DNA from: Sulfitobacter sp.
GTDB lineage: Bacteria > Pseudomonadota > Alphaproteobacteria > Rhodobacterales > Rhodobacteraceae
NCBI GenBank assembly: GCA_024636405.1
Contig: JAGXHC010000031.1
Coordinates: 1-5,339, forward strand
DNA: 5,339 nucleotides
Direction of reading: 5' to 3'
The notes under the pieces are model-generated. The model had not been told where the DNA came from. It saw only the letters and a list, made by a program, of their open reading frames with translations, and ran no database searches. Every line of letters begins with the position of its first letter. The first letter of the stretch is position 1. Below are positions 2-5,339 of this stretch, piece by piece. The position numbers and the translations under genes were made by a program.

Positions 2-2035
2 CTCAAAGGGCCCGCCAACGATGTGCGCCTGCTAGACAGCGTGTTGCGTGGGCGCGGGGTCACGGACATAAGGATTTTGGCTGACGGGGTCGCTGGCGGC
101 ACGGTTCCGACGCGGGCGGCAATCCTCGATGCGTTCGAAGTTTTGTCGCAAACCGTGCGGAGCGGTGATTTTGTCTATATTCATCTGTCAGGCCACGGCA
201 CACGCCAGACCGATCTGAACGGCGATGAAACCGACGGGCTTGACGAGGTGTTTTTGCCCGCAGATGTCGCACGGGCAGATGCGGGGCAGTTGACGATACC
301 GAACGCGCTGGTCGATGATGAAATCGGGGCCGCTGTCGACCGTATCCGGGCCAGTGGCGCGGACGTGTGGCTGGTCATGGATTCGTGTCATTCAGGCTCT
401 GGACTGCGCGCCGCCACCCCCGGCACCGCGCTGCGGTTTGTTGATCCGGCGGTGTTGGGAATAACGGTCACGCCAAATCCGCAGCCGGAACAGACCATCG
501 TCGAGGAAACACCAGATGTCCCCGGTGGATCGTTTCTGGCCTTTTATTCCGCACGATCAACCGAAGTCGCACGCGAGGTCAACATGGCCGCAGATGGCGC
601 ACCGGAGGAATGGTACGGTCTGTTCACCGCAAAGCTGGCGACACGGCTTCAGACCGCTGGTGCCGTAACGTTCCGCCAGGTCTTTCAGGGCGTGTTGAGT
701 GACATGAACGATGGGGTGGTGCCCGGCGTCGCACGGTTGCAGACGCCAACGTGGGAGGGGCGGTTGATCGACGCCGCCCTGTTTGGCGGGGCCGCAACAA
801 CAGGCATCCGGCGGTATGCTGTGACCGGTGAGGAATTATCCGCAGGACTGGTGCATGGGCTGGCCGAGGGGACGCTGGTTGGATTGGTCGCCGATGCAGC
901 GGACGCGCCTGACAAGGTGTTGGGATTTGCCCAGACCGAAGATACCACCGCAACGCTAAGCTATCTGCGCGCGGTGGATAAGACCTGTATTCCGCTGTCC
1001 GATACGCCCTGCGATGCTGCGGGCACTCTGCCGCCGAACGCGAAGTTCGCGCAAGTTATCGCACGCCCCATTGATCACAAGACCCGGATCAGCCCGCCGC
1101 GGGATATCGCAACAGGCGCGATCCTGCCTGCCGATCACCCCGCACAGGTGGCATTGGCGGCGGCGCTTTCACAGATCGACGCAGGCGCGGGGCAGGGCCT
1201 TGAACTGGCGCAGGCTGATTTCACGGTCGAAGTGATCTGGGATGGCATGGCGCTGTGGTTCGGGCCCCGCGCTGTTGAGGGGCAAAGCGCTGTCGGATTG
1301 CGCTGGGGGCTGGCGGATGCGGACCTTGTGCCCCTGCTTTCGCGGCTGGCCCGCGCCGAGGAAATGGCGCGGATGCTGGATGCAGTGGCCGCAGGCGGGT
1401 CGATCATGGTGCCAAGCCCGGTGGCCATAAGCGCGCGCTTTAACCCGGTGGATGTCAGCGATCTGGCCTTGCCCGGCGCAGAGGTGTCGACCGCCCGCGA
1501 ATGCCGCCGCGCCATTGCGCAGCGCGGTAACGCAAAGGCACAGACGCTTGAGACAAGCGCGGACCTCAAGCAATGCGACCAGATCAGCTTTTCGGTGCAG
1601 GGCGAAGTTGCCGGCGCGCATGACGTAAACCGGGTCTATATTGACGCACAATATTGTATCACCGCCGAATACGAGCGGATAGAAGACGCCGCGGCGGCGC
1701 GGGCGCTGGGCGGCGAAATGACCATGTGTTCGGACTGCAACGGGACGTATGCGGCGGGCGAGGAACGGCTTTATGTCATCACGACCGAAAGCCCGGAAAA
1801 CAGTGACGCGCTTAATCTTGAGGGCCTGATCGAGAATTGCGGGCCGACCGGCGGCATGCGCGGCGCGCAAAGCGCCCGTGCCATCAGCTTTCTCAGCCAG
1901 ATGGCGGCACGGCCTGACACGCGCGGCGCAATGGGCGGCTTCGGGGTGTCAGATATCTGGGTTGAACGGTTCAACTGGCGTGTTTTGCCGCGCGTTGAGG
2001 CTTTTGCAAAAGCTGGACGCGAGATCGGAAATTGA
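2..2035 (+). CDS. Metacaspase-like caspase-fold cysteine protease (peptidase C14), 5' partial
   Basis: Cysteine endopeptidase of the caspase/metacaspase clan. The frame is open from the window edge, and its first residues (LKGPANDVRLL) match the start of the p20 fold, so the GTG at 23 is internal; probably 30-60 residues, including any signal peptide, lie upstream. The catalytic His is in LSGHGTR (codon 194-196) and the catalytic Cys in MDSCHSGSG (codon 386-388). Between them an acidic stretch, DLNGDETDGLDE (about 218-250), is typical of metacaspases. The caspase domain ends near nt 780. The remaining ~420 residues contain eight cysteines (codons at 986, 1010, 1502, 1574, 1655, 1727, 1736, 1838), whereas the visible caspase domain has only the catalytic one. 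This fits disulfides in an exported protein. The far C-terminus (about 1570-1900) looks beta-rich and may resemble the trailing domain of other proteobacterial caspase proteins, but I cannot name it. It is first in a likely operon with a serine protease. The family call is firm; target and location are inferred. Confidence 0.9.
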   Translation, partial: LKGPANDVRLLDSVLRGRGVTDIRILADGVAGGTVPTRAAILDAFEVLSQTVRSGDFVYIHLSGHGTRQTDLNGDETDGLDEVFLPADVARADAGQLTIPNALVDDEIGAAVDRIRASGADVWLVMDSCHSGSGLRAATPGTALRFVDPAVLGITVTPNPQPEQTIVEETPDVPGGSFLAFYSARSTEVAREVNMAADGAPEEWYGLFTAKLATRLQTAGAVTFRQVFQGVLSDMNDGVVPGVARLQTPTWEGRLIDAALFGGAATTGIRRYAVTGEELSAGLVHGLAEGTLVGLVADAADAPDKVLGFAQTEDTTATLSYLRAVDKTCIPLSDTPCDAAGTLPPNAKFAQVIARPIDHKTRISPPRDIATGAILPADHPAQVALAAALSQIDAGAGQGLELAQADFTVEVIWDGMALWFGPRAVEGQSAVGLRWGLADADLVPLLSRLARAEEMARMLDAVAAGGSIMVPSPVAISARFNPVDVSDLALPGAEVSTARECRRAIAQRGNAKAQTLETSADLKQCDQISFSVQGEVAGAHDVNRVYIDAQYCITAEYERIEDAAAARALGGEMTMCSDCNGTYAAGEERLYVITTESPENSDALNLEGLIENCGPTGGMRGAQSARAISFLSQMAARPDTRGAMGGFGVSDIWVERFNWRVLPRVEAFAKAGREIGN

Positions 2036-2052
2036 CTGGATAACTTTTAGCT

Positions 2053-2060
2053 GGAGAGGA
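2053..2060 (+). promoter_or_regulatory. Ribosome-binding site of the serine protease gene
   Basis: GGAGAGGA is a strong Shine-Dalgarno match, six bases before the GTG at 2067. It decides the start of the downstream gene: the in-frame ATG at 1878 lies deep inside the caspase gene and would place an implausible 63-residue extension before a good signal peptide. The 31-nt gap between the caspase stop and this start holds this site and no visible hairpin terminator, supporting co-transcription. Confidence 0.85.
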
Positions 2061-2066
2061 ATTAAG

Positions 2067-3137
2067 GTGACCAAAAACAAAACTCACGCAAATCTGAGGA
2101 CGCTGGCGTTTGCCACGGCGCTGTCTGTCCTGCCAGCCGTGCTTGCGGCGCAATCAACAGGTCTGTCGCAAATCGCGACACCCGCAGGGTCCGATCAGGT
2201 CGCGGTGAAAACCCACGTCCTGGCTGCAAAGGAACTGGGCACGGTTGTGGACGGCGAGGCAGCATCCCGGATTTTCGGCGGACGTACTGCCCAGCAGGGG
2301 GCCTGGCCTTTTCAGGTTTCGCTGCATTCAGCAGAAGGGTTGGACGGATCGCCGCAAAGCAAGTTTCAGTCGCAGTTCTGTGGCGGAACCCTCATTGCGC
2401 GGCAGTGGGTGCTGACAGCGGCGCACTGCGTTGTTCAACAAAACGGGCGCACTTCCGATCCCGCGTCGATCATGGTGCATACATCTTCGGTTAACCTTGA
2501 TGAAGGTGACTACAGACCCGTTGCGCGCGTCATTGCACACGAAAAATATGATCCCGTTCGCATCGACAATGATATCGCGCTGATCCAGCTGGCCCAGCCG
2601 ATCGGCGACGCGTCCGGCCCGGTAGGTGCGATCCCGGTCCTGCCCGGAGGTGCTGCTGTGCCGCAGGGGCCGTCGGTGGTCATTGGCTGGGGCATGATGG
2701 AAGAAAACAAGTTTCCCGCATCGCTGATGGAAACCGACATCGATATCGTGCCAAACGCCACCTGCAATGCCGGAATGCGCGAGCAGACCAAACGCGATGT
2801 AGGCGGTTTCCTGATGGGCATGGGCGCAACCAACGGTGTGCCGCAAGAGGCGCTGGAACAGGCGTTTCAGACAATCACCCAGAACCTTGGTGATGCGTTG
2901 TCGGACAATATGATCTGCGCTGGTATCGCATCGGGTGCCAAGACGTCGTGCAGCGGAGACAGCGGCGGGCCGTTGATGGTGCGCCAGCAGAACGGCAGCT
3001 GGCTTCAGGTTGGAATCGTAAGCTGGGGCCGCGAACCGCTGGGGTCAAATCAGCGTTGCGGACATCAAGACCTGTATTCAGTCTACACAAATGTATCCAA
3101 TTACTTTGATTGGATAGCCCAGCATGTACGGGGATAA
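2067..3137 (+). CDS. Secreted trypsin-fold serine protease zymogen (peptidase S1)
   Basis: Serine endopeptidase of the chymotrypsin family, 356 residues, starting at GTG. Residues 1 to about 28 are a signal peptide (basic MTKNKTHANLR, hydrophobic core, LAA cleavage region). Residues 29-68 look like a propeptide. The mature N-terminus would be Ile69 in SRIFGG, the counterpart of Ile16 in chymotrypsin. The triad is complete: His120 (LTAAHC), Asp169 (DNDIAL) and Ser299 (CSGDSGGP), with Asp298 placed to receive the new N-terminus. Cysteine pairs expected from the family are 105-121, 233-284 and 295-331. Two oddities: the S1-pocket residue equivalent to trypsin Asp189 is Thr293, so classic Arg/Lys specificity is unlikely; and the 233-284 disulfide loop spans 51 residues, against about 14 in trypsin. 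It follows the caspase gene by 31 nt and is followed closely by the rhodanese gene. Family and export are clear; substrate is unknown. Confidence 0.95.
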   Translation: MTKNKTHANLRTLAFATALSVLPAVLAAQSTGLSQIATPAGSDQVAVKTHVLAAKELGTVVDGEAASRIFGGRTAQQGAWPFQVSLHSAEGLDGSPQSKFQSQFCGGTLIARQWVLTAAHCVVQQNGRTSDPASIMVHTSSVNLDEGDYRPVARVIAHEKYDPVRIDNDIALIQLAQPIGDASGPVGAIPVLPGGAAVPQGPSVVIGWGMMEENKFPASLMETDIDIVPNATCNAGMREQTKRDVGGFLMGMGATNGVPQEALEQAFQTITQNLGDALSDNMICAGIASGAKTSCSGDSGGPLMVRQQNGSWLQVGIVSWGREPLGSNQRCGHQDLYSVYTNVSNYFDWIAQHVRG

Positions 3138-3141
3138 TGCG

Positions 3142-4053
3142 ATGTACAGTATCATGAAAGTTGGCGCGATTGCCGCCGTTTGCACGGCCCTGCTTGCGAT
3201 CCCCGCGTTTGCCGAAAGCAGCTTTGAGGGGGGCAGTTTCGGCGGCAGCGGCAGTTTTGAGCAGCCATCGCAGACGCCCGGCCCCGCAGATCCTGTTGTT
3301 GACGGCAATTTTTCAGGCAGCTTTGACGGTGGTGCGACGGGCGTGGTGATTGAGCCGGGTCCGGATCAGACCGTGCCCGCAGTGGACACGCCGGGCGGCG
3401 GTGATTTCACCGGTGGCAATTTCGATGACACCGGCGGCAGCTTTGGACCGACCCCACAGCCGGGGCCGCAACCCGTGCCGCAGCCGCAGCCCGTGCCACA
3501 GCCGCAACCAATTCCCCAACCGCAACCGGTGCCGCGGCCCCAACCGGTGCCGCAACCACAGCCTGTTCCGGGCCCAACCGTACAGATTGATCCACAGATC
3601 TACGCGTTTGAGATCCGTGATTTTGGTGTGCAACCGGCGCAGCAATTGCGGCAGGGCGAATTCCACAGCCCGACCCCCACAAGCATACCCGGCGGTCAGC
3701 TTGTATCGACACAGACCCTCGCCGATGCCATGCAAAAGAACACCAAGATGATCGTCATCGACGTACTGGGGGGCCAGTATGCCTTGCCCAATGCCTATGC
3801 TGCGGGGGTGATGGCCCAAGGCGGTAGTTTCACCGACCGGGTGCAACAGCAGACGGTGCAGTGGCTGGGGCAGATCACCGGCGGGCAGCGCGACGTGCCC
3901 ATCGTGATCTATTGCAGCGATCCCATGTGTTGGCTCAGCTACAACGCGTCGCTCAGGGCGATCAACGCAGGCTACAGTCAGGTCTATTGGTATCGCGGCG
4001 GCGTGCAGGCGTGGCAGATGGCGGGTTTGCCGTTGCAGCCGGCATCGTATTGA
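3142..4053 (+). CDS. Exported rhodanese-like domain protein with Pro-Gln linker
   Basis: A 303-residue protein in three parts. Residues 1-24 are a signal peptide (AIPAFA then ES). Residues 25-102 are low complexity, rich in Gly, Ser, Phe and Asp, with recurring SFxGG/GNFxG motifs. Residues 105-145 are a Pro-Gln-Val repeat, a likely extended linker. From about 150 a folded region begins (FEIRDFGVQP, then PTPTSIPGG), leading into a rhodanese domain at roughly 185-300: MIVIDV strand, active loop YCSDPMCW, and the ending YWYRGGVQAWQMAGLP. Cys258 is the expected persulfide-carrying residue; Cys263 closes the same loop, which is unusual and suggests redox or disulfide chemistry. The loop recalls the CXXCW-type rhodanese relatives linked to PQQ-dependent catabolism, but the spacing differs. 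I chose ATG 3142, four bases after the protease stop and eight after a GGGG; ATG 3124 (overlapping the protease) and ATG 3154 are alternatives giving the same signal peptide core. The role in this operon is unknown. Confidence 0.88.
   Translation: MYSIMKVGAIAAVCTALLAIPAFAESSFEGGSFGGSGSFEQPSQTPGPADPVVDGNFSGSFDGGATGVVIEPGPDQTVPAVDTPGGGDFTGGNFDDTGGSFGPTPQPGPQPVPQPQPVPQPQPIPQPQPVPRPQPVPQPQPVPGPTVQIDPQIYAFEIRDFGVQPAQQLRQGEFHSPTPTSIPGGQLVSTQTLADAMQKNTKMIVIDVLGGQYALPNAYAAGVMAQGGSFTDRVQQQTVQWLGQITGGQRDVPIVIYCSDPMCWLSYNASLRAINAGYSQVYWYRGGVQAWQMAGLPLQPASY
3454..3573 (+). repeat. In-gene tandem 18-bp repeat encoding PQPQPV units
   Basis: Five hexapeptide units in register (PQPQPV, PQPQPI, PQPQPV, PRPQPV, PQPQPV) occupy 3478-3567, preceded by the related PQPGPQPV from 3454 and closed by PGP. 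The 18-base period is visible in the DNA, but synonymous codons vary (cag/caa, ccg/cca/ccc). The repeat therefore looks old and kept at protein level, though copy number could still vary by slippage. Such Pro-rich repeats form stiff extended linkers in exported proteins; here it separates the Gly/Phe-rich segment from the rhodanese domain. Confidence 0.9.
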
Positions 4054-4057
4054 CCCG

Positions 4058-5339
4058 TTGACCGGGCGTCTTGCAACGGCGCTGTTTGCGCTTGTAATAT
4101 GGACATGCGCGGCGGTTCCGATCGCCGCGCAAAACCCCGGCGTCGCGCAGGCTGAGGCGCTGATTGACGCCGAGCAATGGGACGAGGCCACGGCGCTTGC
4201 CCAAAAAATGCGTGCCGATGCGTCTGATCAGGGCGCAGTGCTTGAGGCAGATATATTGCTGGTGACGCTGGATTTTCTGCTTGCAGAGCAGGACGTGGCG
4301 CTGGCCAGCCTGACCGATGTAAATTCCCGCATGGTTGATGTTTATGGCTGGCAAGACAGCCGCCGCCTGCCTGTTTTGGACATGCTGGCAGCCGTACAGG
4401 AAGAAGCGGGCGCACCACAGGACGCGCGGCTGAGCTATGTGCGGCTGGCCCATATCGCGGGCACCATAGGGGATACCGCATCACTGATGATAGCGCTGGG
4501 GCGGCTGACGCCTTTGGAACTGGCGCAGGGTGATCCGCAGGCCGCAACCCTGTTTGCTGCGCAATACTACCTTGCGGTGCTGGACGCGGAAGGGGCCGCA
4601 AGCGACGCGGCGCAAACGGCTCTTTATCTGCGGGCGCAGGCGCATTTGGCCGCAGGCCAGCACGCAGCGGCAATCGCGGTTGCAGGATTTGCCGATACCG
4701 GTTTCGACGGCTCCGCAGCGCAGGAATATCGCACCATGCTGCAATCAGCAGGAACGCCGCAACAGATTGCAGACTGGCGTGCGTCGGCGGGTAATATCAC
4801 TATGGACCCAAGCGGCGCGGATATGGCGCTGACCATGGGTAGGTTTTTCGCAGCCTTGGAAAACAACGATCTGGCATTGGCGGGCATAAGTGCGCGCGAA
4901 GTTATTGCCCGCGCCCCAGACGGAGATCCCACTCCGATCACGATCTGCGGCCTGATGGCGTTCTCAACCTCCGTGCAGGATGCGCACGGCGCGCTGCCGT
5001 GGATTGATTGTCTGATGCGCTATCCCGCAGATGTGCTTGGCGTGACGGCGGATCTGGCACCCCTGTTTGACGCCACAGCCGACGGTCTGCTGGACCGTGC
5101 TGATCCGGTTCGCACGATCGCGCTGCGCTCAAAGGCGTTAGACATCGCGACCGTGCTTCAGGGTCCGAAATCCGCCAATGCGCAGCGGCTTCTTTTCAAA
5201 CGGGCAGAGACGTATTTCTATAATCGCGACTTCTCAGCGGCACAGGGTGATCTGAATCGGGCTGCGGTGGACGCCGCGATGGCTGATCCCGAAACGCGCT
5301 ACGACTTTCTGGAGCTTCAGGCGCGGGTACATCTGACAC
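4058..5339 (+). CDS. Exported TPR-like helical repeat protein, 3' partial, TTG start
   Basis: The frame is open for 427 codons to the window edge without a stop. The only start codon placed to give a sensible N-terminus is TTG 4058, four bases after the rhodanese stop; it yields a signal peptide (TGRLATALFALVIW core, cleavage near PIAA-QNPG). No ATG or GTG occurs in frame until about 4208, inside the mature protein. No clear Shine-Dalgarno site precedes it, so translation may be coupled to the upstream gene. The mature part is almost entirely alanine- and leucine-rich helix. TPR-like helical hairpins are visible near the N-terminus (ALIDAEQWDEATALAQKM, about 4139-4212) and at the end (about 5171-5266, with AETYFYNRDFSAAQGDL). 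Two cysteines (codons 4946 and 5009) could pair. Proteins of this kind often scaffold other proteins, and some carry a C-terminal CHAT protease domain; whether this one does cannot be seen here. That it is a real gene is well supported; its function is not. Confidence 0.8.
   Translation, partial: MTGRLATALFALVIWTCAAVPIAAQNPGVAQAEALIDAEQWDEATALAQKMRADASDQGAVLEADILLVTLDFLLAEQDVALASLTDVNSRMVDVYGWQDSRRLPVLDMLAAVQEEAGAPQDARLSYVRLAHIAGTIGDTASLMIALGRLTPLELAQGDPQAATLFAAQYYLAVLDAEGAASDAAQTALYLRAQAHLAAGQHAAAIAVAGFADTGFDGSAAQEYRTMLQSAGTPQQIADWRASAGNITMDPSGADMALTMGRFFAALENNDLALAGISAREVIARAPDGDPTPITICGLMAFSTSVQDAHGALPWIDCLMRYPADVLGVTADLAPLFDATADGLLDRADPVRTIALRSKALDIATVLQGPKSANAQRLLFKRAETYFYNRDFSAAQGDLNRAAVDAAMADPETRYDFLELQARVHLT

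Follow-up and report, generated by a model that had tools for sequence, protein, structure and literature searches.

Here, we identify a fragment of an exported multi-protease locus in the 5,339-nucleotide stretch of Sulfitobacter sp. contig JAGXHC010000031.1 (henceforth, the window). We are confident that the window, which is cut at both ends, derives from a locus of the Rhodobacterales whose products are exported. At its centre stand two caspase-fold proteases: a C14 protease of the metacaspase type and what is very likely a TPR-CHAT protein. A DUF900 hydrolase usually accompanies them, and the variant represented by the window also carries a pair formed by an S1 protease and a rhodanese-like protein. 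Bacterial caspase relatives are mostly treated as cytosolic death or defence enzymes without known substrates. For an exported bacterial caspase, the locus points to a named protein outside the cytoplasm as candidate substrate, with a predicted site of cleavage, and what such a caspase cuts becomes testable with two purified proteins. Actibacterium naphthalenivorans DSM 105040 and Seohaeicola saemankumensis DP4N-5 are named strains that carry the locus. Altogether, these findings support a real and conserved exported caspase-CHAT-protease system for which we found no description, and in which cleavage of the S1 protease by the caspase is the best-supported mechanism, unproven as it is.

The window encodes four closely packed genes on the same strand, and open reading frame (ORF) calls return the spacings of 31, 4, and 4 nucleotides that a sequence-only reading of this stretch had described (Table 1). 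That reading had listed a metacaspase, an S1 protease, a rhodanese, and a TPR-like protein; Pfam matches to Peptidase_C14 (4.5e-13), Trypsin (1.3e-50), and Rhodanese (8.4e-8) bear out the first three, while the fourth is better described as the front of a probable TPR-CHAT protein. Four long antisense ORFs of the window that were tested had no Pfam match, and an Rfam scan of the window returned nothing at the gathering score. Between positions 1900 and 4200, we detected one promoter-like site compared with 0.5 in shuffled sequences, and zero terminator-like sites compared with 2.5.

Table 1. Features of the window and of the compared loci, with positions in the sequence named
Feature	Sequence	Position	Strand	Remarks
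ORF1, C14 metacaspase/orthocaspase-type protease	window	2-2035	+	5' open; ~50 residues (signal peptide, first strand) cut off
C14 catalytic His; Cys	window	194-196; 386-388	+	invariant in 120/120 listed relatives
C14 pocket Asp; Ser; Asp	window	20-22; 188-190; 380-382	+	invariant in 120/120 listed relatives
ORF2, exported chymotrypsin-fold S1 protease with pro-segment	window	2067-3137	+	GTG start; Pfam Trypsin, alignments
S1 activation-site Arg	window	2268-2270	+	before IFGG
S1 triad His; Asp; Ser	window	2424-2426; 2571-2573; 2961-2963	+
S1 pocket position 189	window	2943-2945	+	Thr
ORF3, exported rhodanese-like protein	window	3142-4053	+	ATG start, further in-frame ATG at 3124; signal peptide, linker, rhodanese domain
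Rhodanese linker	window	3214-3606	+	low-complexity, Phe/Gly/Pro-rich, G-[SDN]-F repeats; bounds by simple rule
CX4CW Cys; Cys; Trp	window	3913-3915; 3928-3930; 3931-3933	+
ORF4, front of probable TPR-CHAT protein	window	4058-5338	+	TTG start; 3' open; signal-like peptide, TPR-like region; CHAT would lie past contig end
WD40 protein	L050	11332-15993
WD40 protein	L061	5734-9897
WD40 protein	L062	18180-22595		fused to C14 domain
Unknown protein by DUF900 gene	L001	3504-4445
Unknown protein by DUF900 gene	L003	3320-4390
Unknown protein by DUF900 gene	L047	13681-14700
Unknown protein by DUF900 gene	L052	2582-3553
Rhizobium etli p42e gene row	L099	2312-12097		DUF4384, caspase, trypsin-like protease (Asp189), serpin, kinase; first four signal-like by eye
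Azospirillum sp. B510 plasmid, rhodanese relative	L097	6826-9471
Azospirillum brasilense plasmid, CHAT and caspase-family genes	L098	1-12703

The organization of related loci supports the idea that the two caspase-fold proteases form the core of the system. We tallied eleven loci in which the C14 gene is flanked by 6 kb or more in both directions (L001, L002, L003, L005, L006, L046, L048, L049, L050, L061, and L062). Outside this tally, because they lack flanks, stand L004 (rhodanese only), L047 (which ends inside the S1 gene, with an N stretch), L051 and L052 (two fragments of one genome), and the window; L059, a C14 fragment only, was not counted, and the distant C14 loci L055, L057, and L058 were left out. 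A CHAT-domain gene is present in all eleven loci, and a gene for a DUF900 alpha/beta hydrolase in all except L005; the latter gene is divergent from the C14 gene in nine loci, whereas in L062 it lies downstream of C14 and is codirectional with it. The S1 gene adjoins the C14 gene in 8 of the 11 loci (not L050, L061, and L062), and the rhodanese gene is found in seven (not L049, L050, L061, and L062), i.e., rhodanese goes with S1 rather than with C14 and CHAT. Thus, the conserved co-occurrence of four genes anticipated by the sequence-only reading holds for C14 and CHAT, which are together in 11/11, but S1 is missing from 3/11 and rhodanese from 4/11. C14, S1, and rhodanese genes follow each other in the same order and on the same strand in eight relatives besides the window (L001, L002, L003, L005, L006, L046, L048, and L051), which speaks against a chance arrangement. 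The position of the CHAT gene varies: on the same strand, it lies after the rhodanese gene in L001, L005, L006, and L046, after the S1 gene in L049, and after the C14 gene in L061; it is convergent in L003 and on the opposite side of the C14 gene in L002, L048, L050, and L062. The linkage of C14 to S1 also emerged from protein clusters. Of the 120 C14 clusters listed, 45 share the size of their longest contig with listed S1 clusters, compared with 0 to 2 in nine shifted controls, and 43 of the 80 S1 clusters with contigs of at least 5 kb matched a C14 cluster; these values are lower bounds because each list was limited to its top 120.

Large WD40 proteins, whose N termini look signal-like by eye, are encoded in each of the three loci that lack S1 and rhodanese. 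Two of these loci are on plasmids; L062 additionally has a mechanosensitive-channel gene. BLAST with the three WD40 proteins found no relatives in the other eight loci, which is a weak test because the L062 protein failed to find those of L050 and L061. A C14 tree was built from 30 rows, with the S1 linkage of database rows taken from equal-sized longest contigs of C14 and S1 clusters; on this tree, the label for S1 absence (three rows) takes three changes, no better than shuffles. The S1-less caspase of Sulfitobacter sp. SK012 falls within a supported clade of seven rows, three of them S1-linked, suggesting that the S1-rhodanese pair was lost or replaced there. The protein encoded by the DUF900 gene's neighbour has a signal-like N terminus in L001 and L003, and neither protein has a Pfam match above the cut-off.

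The distribution of the locus is patchy. A C14 profile search of the 394 genomes in the family of genome G001 matched 40 at E ≤ 1e-20, and eight of the 394 at 690 bits or more, of which two (G001 and G005) had supplied query rows; in the genus of G003, 3 of 62 genomes matched, one of them G003, itself a query source. In a class-wide sample at E ≤ 1e-60, the two matches in 385 genomes were the reference G001 and a partial match of 263 bits, and we set a class-wide spread aside. A scan of genome contigs for the rhodanese protein yielded six loci, in Actibacterium, Marivita, Sulfitobacter, Gemmobacter, Seohaeicola, and one genome named only as Alphaproteobacteria; the tree tool lists Actibacterium, Marivita, Sulfitobacter, and Seohaeicola as Roseobacteraceae. 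C14 relatives covering 99 to 100% of the window protein are encoded on plasmids of Sulfitobacter sp. SK012 (64% identity) and THAF37 (47%).

ORF4 is very likely, though not certainly, the N-terminal part of a TPR-CHAT protein and, thus, of a second caspase-fold protease. Over nearly its full length, it can be aligned with the front of the TPR-CHAT protein of L048 (score 172 versus 98 for the best of 200 shuffles; composition-adjusted BLASTP 3e-4) and, more weakly, with that of L002 (score 117 versus 81 for the best shuffle; BLASTP 0.003). These alignments, the position of ORF4, which is the slot of the TPR-CHAT gene in four relatives, and its signal-like N terminus support this assignment, and because ORF4 aligns with the fronts of two TPR-CHAT proteins, we set aside a stand-alone TPR protein. 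Pfam gave no TPR match above the cut-off, alignments with the L003 and L050 CHAT proteins did not exceed shuffles, and a profile of CHAT-protein N termini from L001, L005, L006, L046, and L049 did not match ORF4. A protein search with ORF4 had no match at E ≤ 1e-3, and full-length TPR-CHAT proteins exceed the length limits of that search; the genome search (0/394 family genomes) lacked a positive control, so that its emptiness shows nothing. In a scripted check of ten CHAT proteins from the loci, nine have the His-Gly and S-x-Cys motifs, and the L061 protein failed the His pattern yet shows THG. The L050 protein, whose gene was found by Pfam and missed by the local profile, was outside this check.

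The N termini of the locus products suggest that all of them are exported to the periplasm or the surface. We judged signal peptides by a crude rule. The S1, rhodanese, and ORF4 proteins of the window, in which signal peptides had previously been noticed, pass this rule. For the caspase, whose start is cut off in the window, the sequence-only reading had named an export signal on the complete protein as a check, and 101 of 120 listed C14 relatives do pass the rule; several of the 19 that fail seem to have a misplaced start or to fall just short. Here and below, the listed C14 proteins are the best 120 of 451 homologues, and the listed S1 proteins the best 120 of 548, each from a search that scored just under 8000 candidates. 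The suspected disulfide-like cysteine pattern of the caspase is also real: eight noncatalytic Cys residues are present in the window and invariant in all 120 listed relatives. The Cys-rich C-terminal region of the caspase has no Pfam match.

The features of the caspase and of the S1 protease suggest how the two might be connected. The caspase has the p20 domain and the His-Cys dyad of C14B metacaspases and orthocaspases. A profile built from six C14 relatives finds yeast metacaspase-1 (4f6o) at 7.2e-21, and other metacaspases are also the nearest solved structures. Metacaspases and orthocaspases cleave after Arg or Lys (PMC5756287; PMC6426788), and the acidic S1 pocket of TbMCA2 comprises Cys92, Asp95, Ser156, and Asp211 (PMC4357240). 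Placed via the alignment with yeast metacaspase-1, the equivalents of Asp95, Ser156, and Asp211 are kept in 120/120 C14 proteins, and we infer that the pocket of the window caspase is largely that of Arg/Lys-specific metacaspases. In all 120 listed S1 proteins, including that of the window, Arg precedes the [IV]xGG start and the His-Asp-Ser triad is complete, as in S1A zymogens. Among PDB sequences, tryptase and plasma kallikrein match the S1 protein best. Position 189, which is Asp in enzymes of trypsin specificity, is Thr in 88 of the 120 proteins, Ser in 22, Asp in nine, and Ala in one; because this Asp is absent from the window protein, we set aside a true trypsin. By the usual rule, an S1 enzyme without Asp189 should not cleave after Arg. 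The window S1 protease would probably prefer large hydrophobic residues and be unable to cut its own activation site, such that an outside Arg-specific protease is needed, for which the adjoining caspase is the natural candidate.

We, therefore, suggest, tentatively, a scheme in which activation of the S1 zymogen by the caspase takes place in the periplasm or at the surface. A cue, probably sensed via the TPR-CHAT protein and/or the Cys-rich C-terminal region of the caspase, would switch the caspase on; the caspase would then cleave S1 behind its invariant activation-site Arg and so free the I-F-G-G N terminus. 

Several observations weigh against this scheme or against the assignments on which it builds. 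The activation-site Arg is ancestral in chymotrypsin-type zymogens, so that its conservation alone proves little and the pattern is suggestive only. The nine listed S1 proteins with Asp189 might self-activate. A control with PF00089 in 15 genomes, in which 43 rows gave 30 loci and motifs were obtained for 29 (L093 gave none), cuts both ways. In favour of the scheme, the 12 of 19 matched places that were read in the six locus-carrying genomes comprise six locus S1 proteins and six proteins that are HtrA-like by motif. Against it, three S1A-like controls were read in genome G012, which had no C14 match in the family profile search; two have Asp189 (L069 and L082) and L096 has another residue, and the absence of Asp189 is, thus, not unique to neighbours of caspases. 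Both S1 and rhodanese are missing from 3 of the 11 flanked loci, and the start of the window's C14 protein and its expected CHAT domain fall beyond the contig ends. As for the pocket, the position of TbMCA2 Cys92 is Pro here, invariantly so in a 71-row alignment, and metacaspase activity falls when the Cys92 equivalent is mutated (PMC5756287). Finally, a basic preference is not universal in the caspase fold, as a caspase-fold protease that cuts a bacterial gasdermin cleaves after Leu (PMC9612521).

A further step could link the S1 protease to the rhodanese-like protein. Its CX4CW motif is invariant in 10/10 aligned proteins. In nine of these proteins (the tenth, L004, yielded no linker), the linkers total 1056 residues with 62 Phe, 2 Tyr, 1 Trp, 10 Leu, and 6 Lys plus Arg, and the Phe residues are mostly inside G-[SDN]-F motifs. 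With this composition, the linker would be open to a chymotrypsin-like enzyme yet withstand a protease specific for basic residues. Mature S1 may, speculatively, cut this Phe-rich, Lys/Arg-poor linker, which tethers the rhodanese domain; we consider such a release doubtful. Equally doubtful is the complete three-step extracytoplasmic cascade, in which CHAT and the metacaspase as initiators would act on a non-self-activating chymotrypsin-like zymogen, which in turn would free the rhodanese from its Phe-repeat linker. If true, the cascade would be a counterpart of zymogen cascades in the periplasm, and its output arm, S1-rhodanese or WD40, would be exchangeable. The G-[SDN]-F repeats also resemble FG repeats, for which self-association rather than service as a protease target is possible. 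A solved-structure search with the rhodanese alignment found nothing at E ≤ 0.01. The protein has a rhodanese-like domain as TIGR03865 (PQQ_CXXCW) does and matches that profile at 9.8e-26; its 90.6 bits are below the cut-off of 128.05, and it differs from that family in its CX4CW spacing, its Phe/Gly/Pro linker, and its protease neighbours. Rhodanese relatives in Azospirillum were rejected as the same locus: the one inspected, on a plasmid of Azospirillum sp. B510, adjoins a thioredoxin-family gene, and caspases are not among the annotations.

An arrangement without any order of activation, in which the exported proteases work in parallel in envelope protein turnover or the scavenging of external protein and another host protease matures S1, seems to us somewhat unlikely. 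It would account for the loci in which C14, CHAT, and DUF900 persist in the absence of S1 and rhodanese, which imply that C14 does not depend on S1, as well as for the S1 proteins with Asp189 and for a patchy distribution that is partly plasmid-borne. It fits less well with the finding that S1 adjoins C14 in eight of the eleven flanked loci, with the nesting of the S1-less SK012 caspase among S1-linked ones, and with a second, distant type of exported locus that again pairs C14 with S1. The rhodanese has also to be considered as a redox guardian of the catalytic cysteines of C14 and CHAT, operating through a persulfide or disulfide switch. Two extracytoplasmic Cys proteases beside an exported rhodanese with an invariant CX4CW motif would agree with this role, which we nevertheless regard as very improbable, because the rhodanese is present in 7/8 loci with S1 and in 0/3 without, where C14 and CHAT are kept.

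Unlikely, in our view, is an outward-facing conflict or programmed-death module, in which the caspase and CHAT proteins would sense phage, predators, or envelope damage and S1 and DUF900 would be envelope effectors. Caspase, CHAT, and trypsin domains do serve bacterial conflict and gasdermin systems (PMC9612521; PMC10907252), and the rarity of the locus at the family and genus levels, even with query sources included, and the large WD40 proteins of the S1-less loci would be compatible with such a module. However, the six proteins tested with PADLOC models had no strong match: the window caspase has a partial match to a generic caspase model (8.3e-11, 39.7 bits), and the weak matches are to LmuA (0.0011) and Avs1b (0.0016) for S1 and to BovA (0.009) for the L001 CHAT protein. 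A defence system listed in PADLOC was, therefore, dropped. Similarly, relatives of S1 and C14 were not found among IMG/VR viral contigs, and a phage-borne system was set aside on these empty searches. Moreover, no NTPase sensor is annotated in L061, L062, and L063; a systematic search of flanks for gasdermin or STAND proteins was not made. Activation of S1 by the caspase is the mechanism that we favour.

The sequence-only reading could not name a periplasmic or secreted caspase-trypsin pair with a rhodanese. An open-access literature search revealed no description of the gene combination, and searches on DUF900 and on caspase, serpin, Rhizobium, and trypsin found nothing relevant; the pairing of an exported caspase with a trypsin-like protease, by contrast, already exists in R. 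etli p42e. Bacterial gasdermin operons are cytosolic. They encode a caspase-like, CHAT, or trypsin-like protease beside its substrate (PMC9612521), and differ from the present loci, where no gasdermin was recognised among the Pfam-scanned proteins. The systems described in the available part of PMC10907252 are other than this gene set. Craspase, the TPR-CHAT protein of type III-E CRISPR, likewise joins TPR to a CHAT protease domain. It partners a CRISPR effector (PMC9729208; PMC9935389). Unlike Craspase, the CHAT proteins of the locus start with signal-like segments, and the annotations of the two plasmid loci include no CRISPR gene. On the A. brasilense plasmid, two CHAT genes adjoin a caspase-family gene, with transposases nearby.

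Closer is the second type of exported caspase locus in Rhodobacterales (L053, L054, L056, and L063), in all four of which the caspase is directly followed by S1. As in the window, this S1 is exported, has a basic residue before the activation site (Arg in 3/4, Lys in 1/4), and lacks Asp189 (0/4); in L063, S1 is ~34% identical and a CHAT protein is nearby. These loci differ in having two caspases, an HtrA-like protease, a two-component system, and a patatin (L056 and L063), with no rhodanese seen. The L063 annotations comprise two caspases, a trypsin-like PDZ protease, a response regulator, a histidine kinase, and a patatin, plus TPR and CHAT proteins, and L056 resembles it, with protease and patatin by Pfam and two-component genes by eye. 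L063 lies on a plasmid of Pseudosulfitobacter pseudonitzschiae, and 46 plasmid records of Pseudosulfitobacter gave C14 matches.

As a precedent, the exported caspase-trypsin-serpin operon of Rhizobium comes nearest. The gene set on R. etli p42e probably corresponds to the "protease and protease inhibition" operon variant reported from four Rhizobium strains (PMC3501461). It differs from the window in that its S1 has Asp189, as do 3/3 S1 relatives from Rhizobium and Neorhizobium, and could self-activate, in that a serpin and a kinase come next, and in that its caspase is without the DSCHSG motif; CHAT, DUF900, and rhodanese are not among the annotated products of the stretch shown. What the two sets share is a caspase directly followed by an S1 protease with an activation-site Arg, both signal-like at the N terminus.

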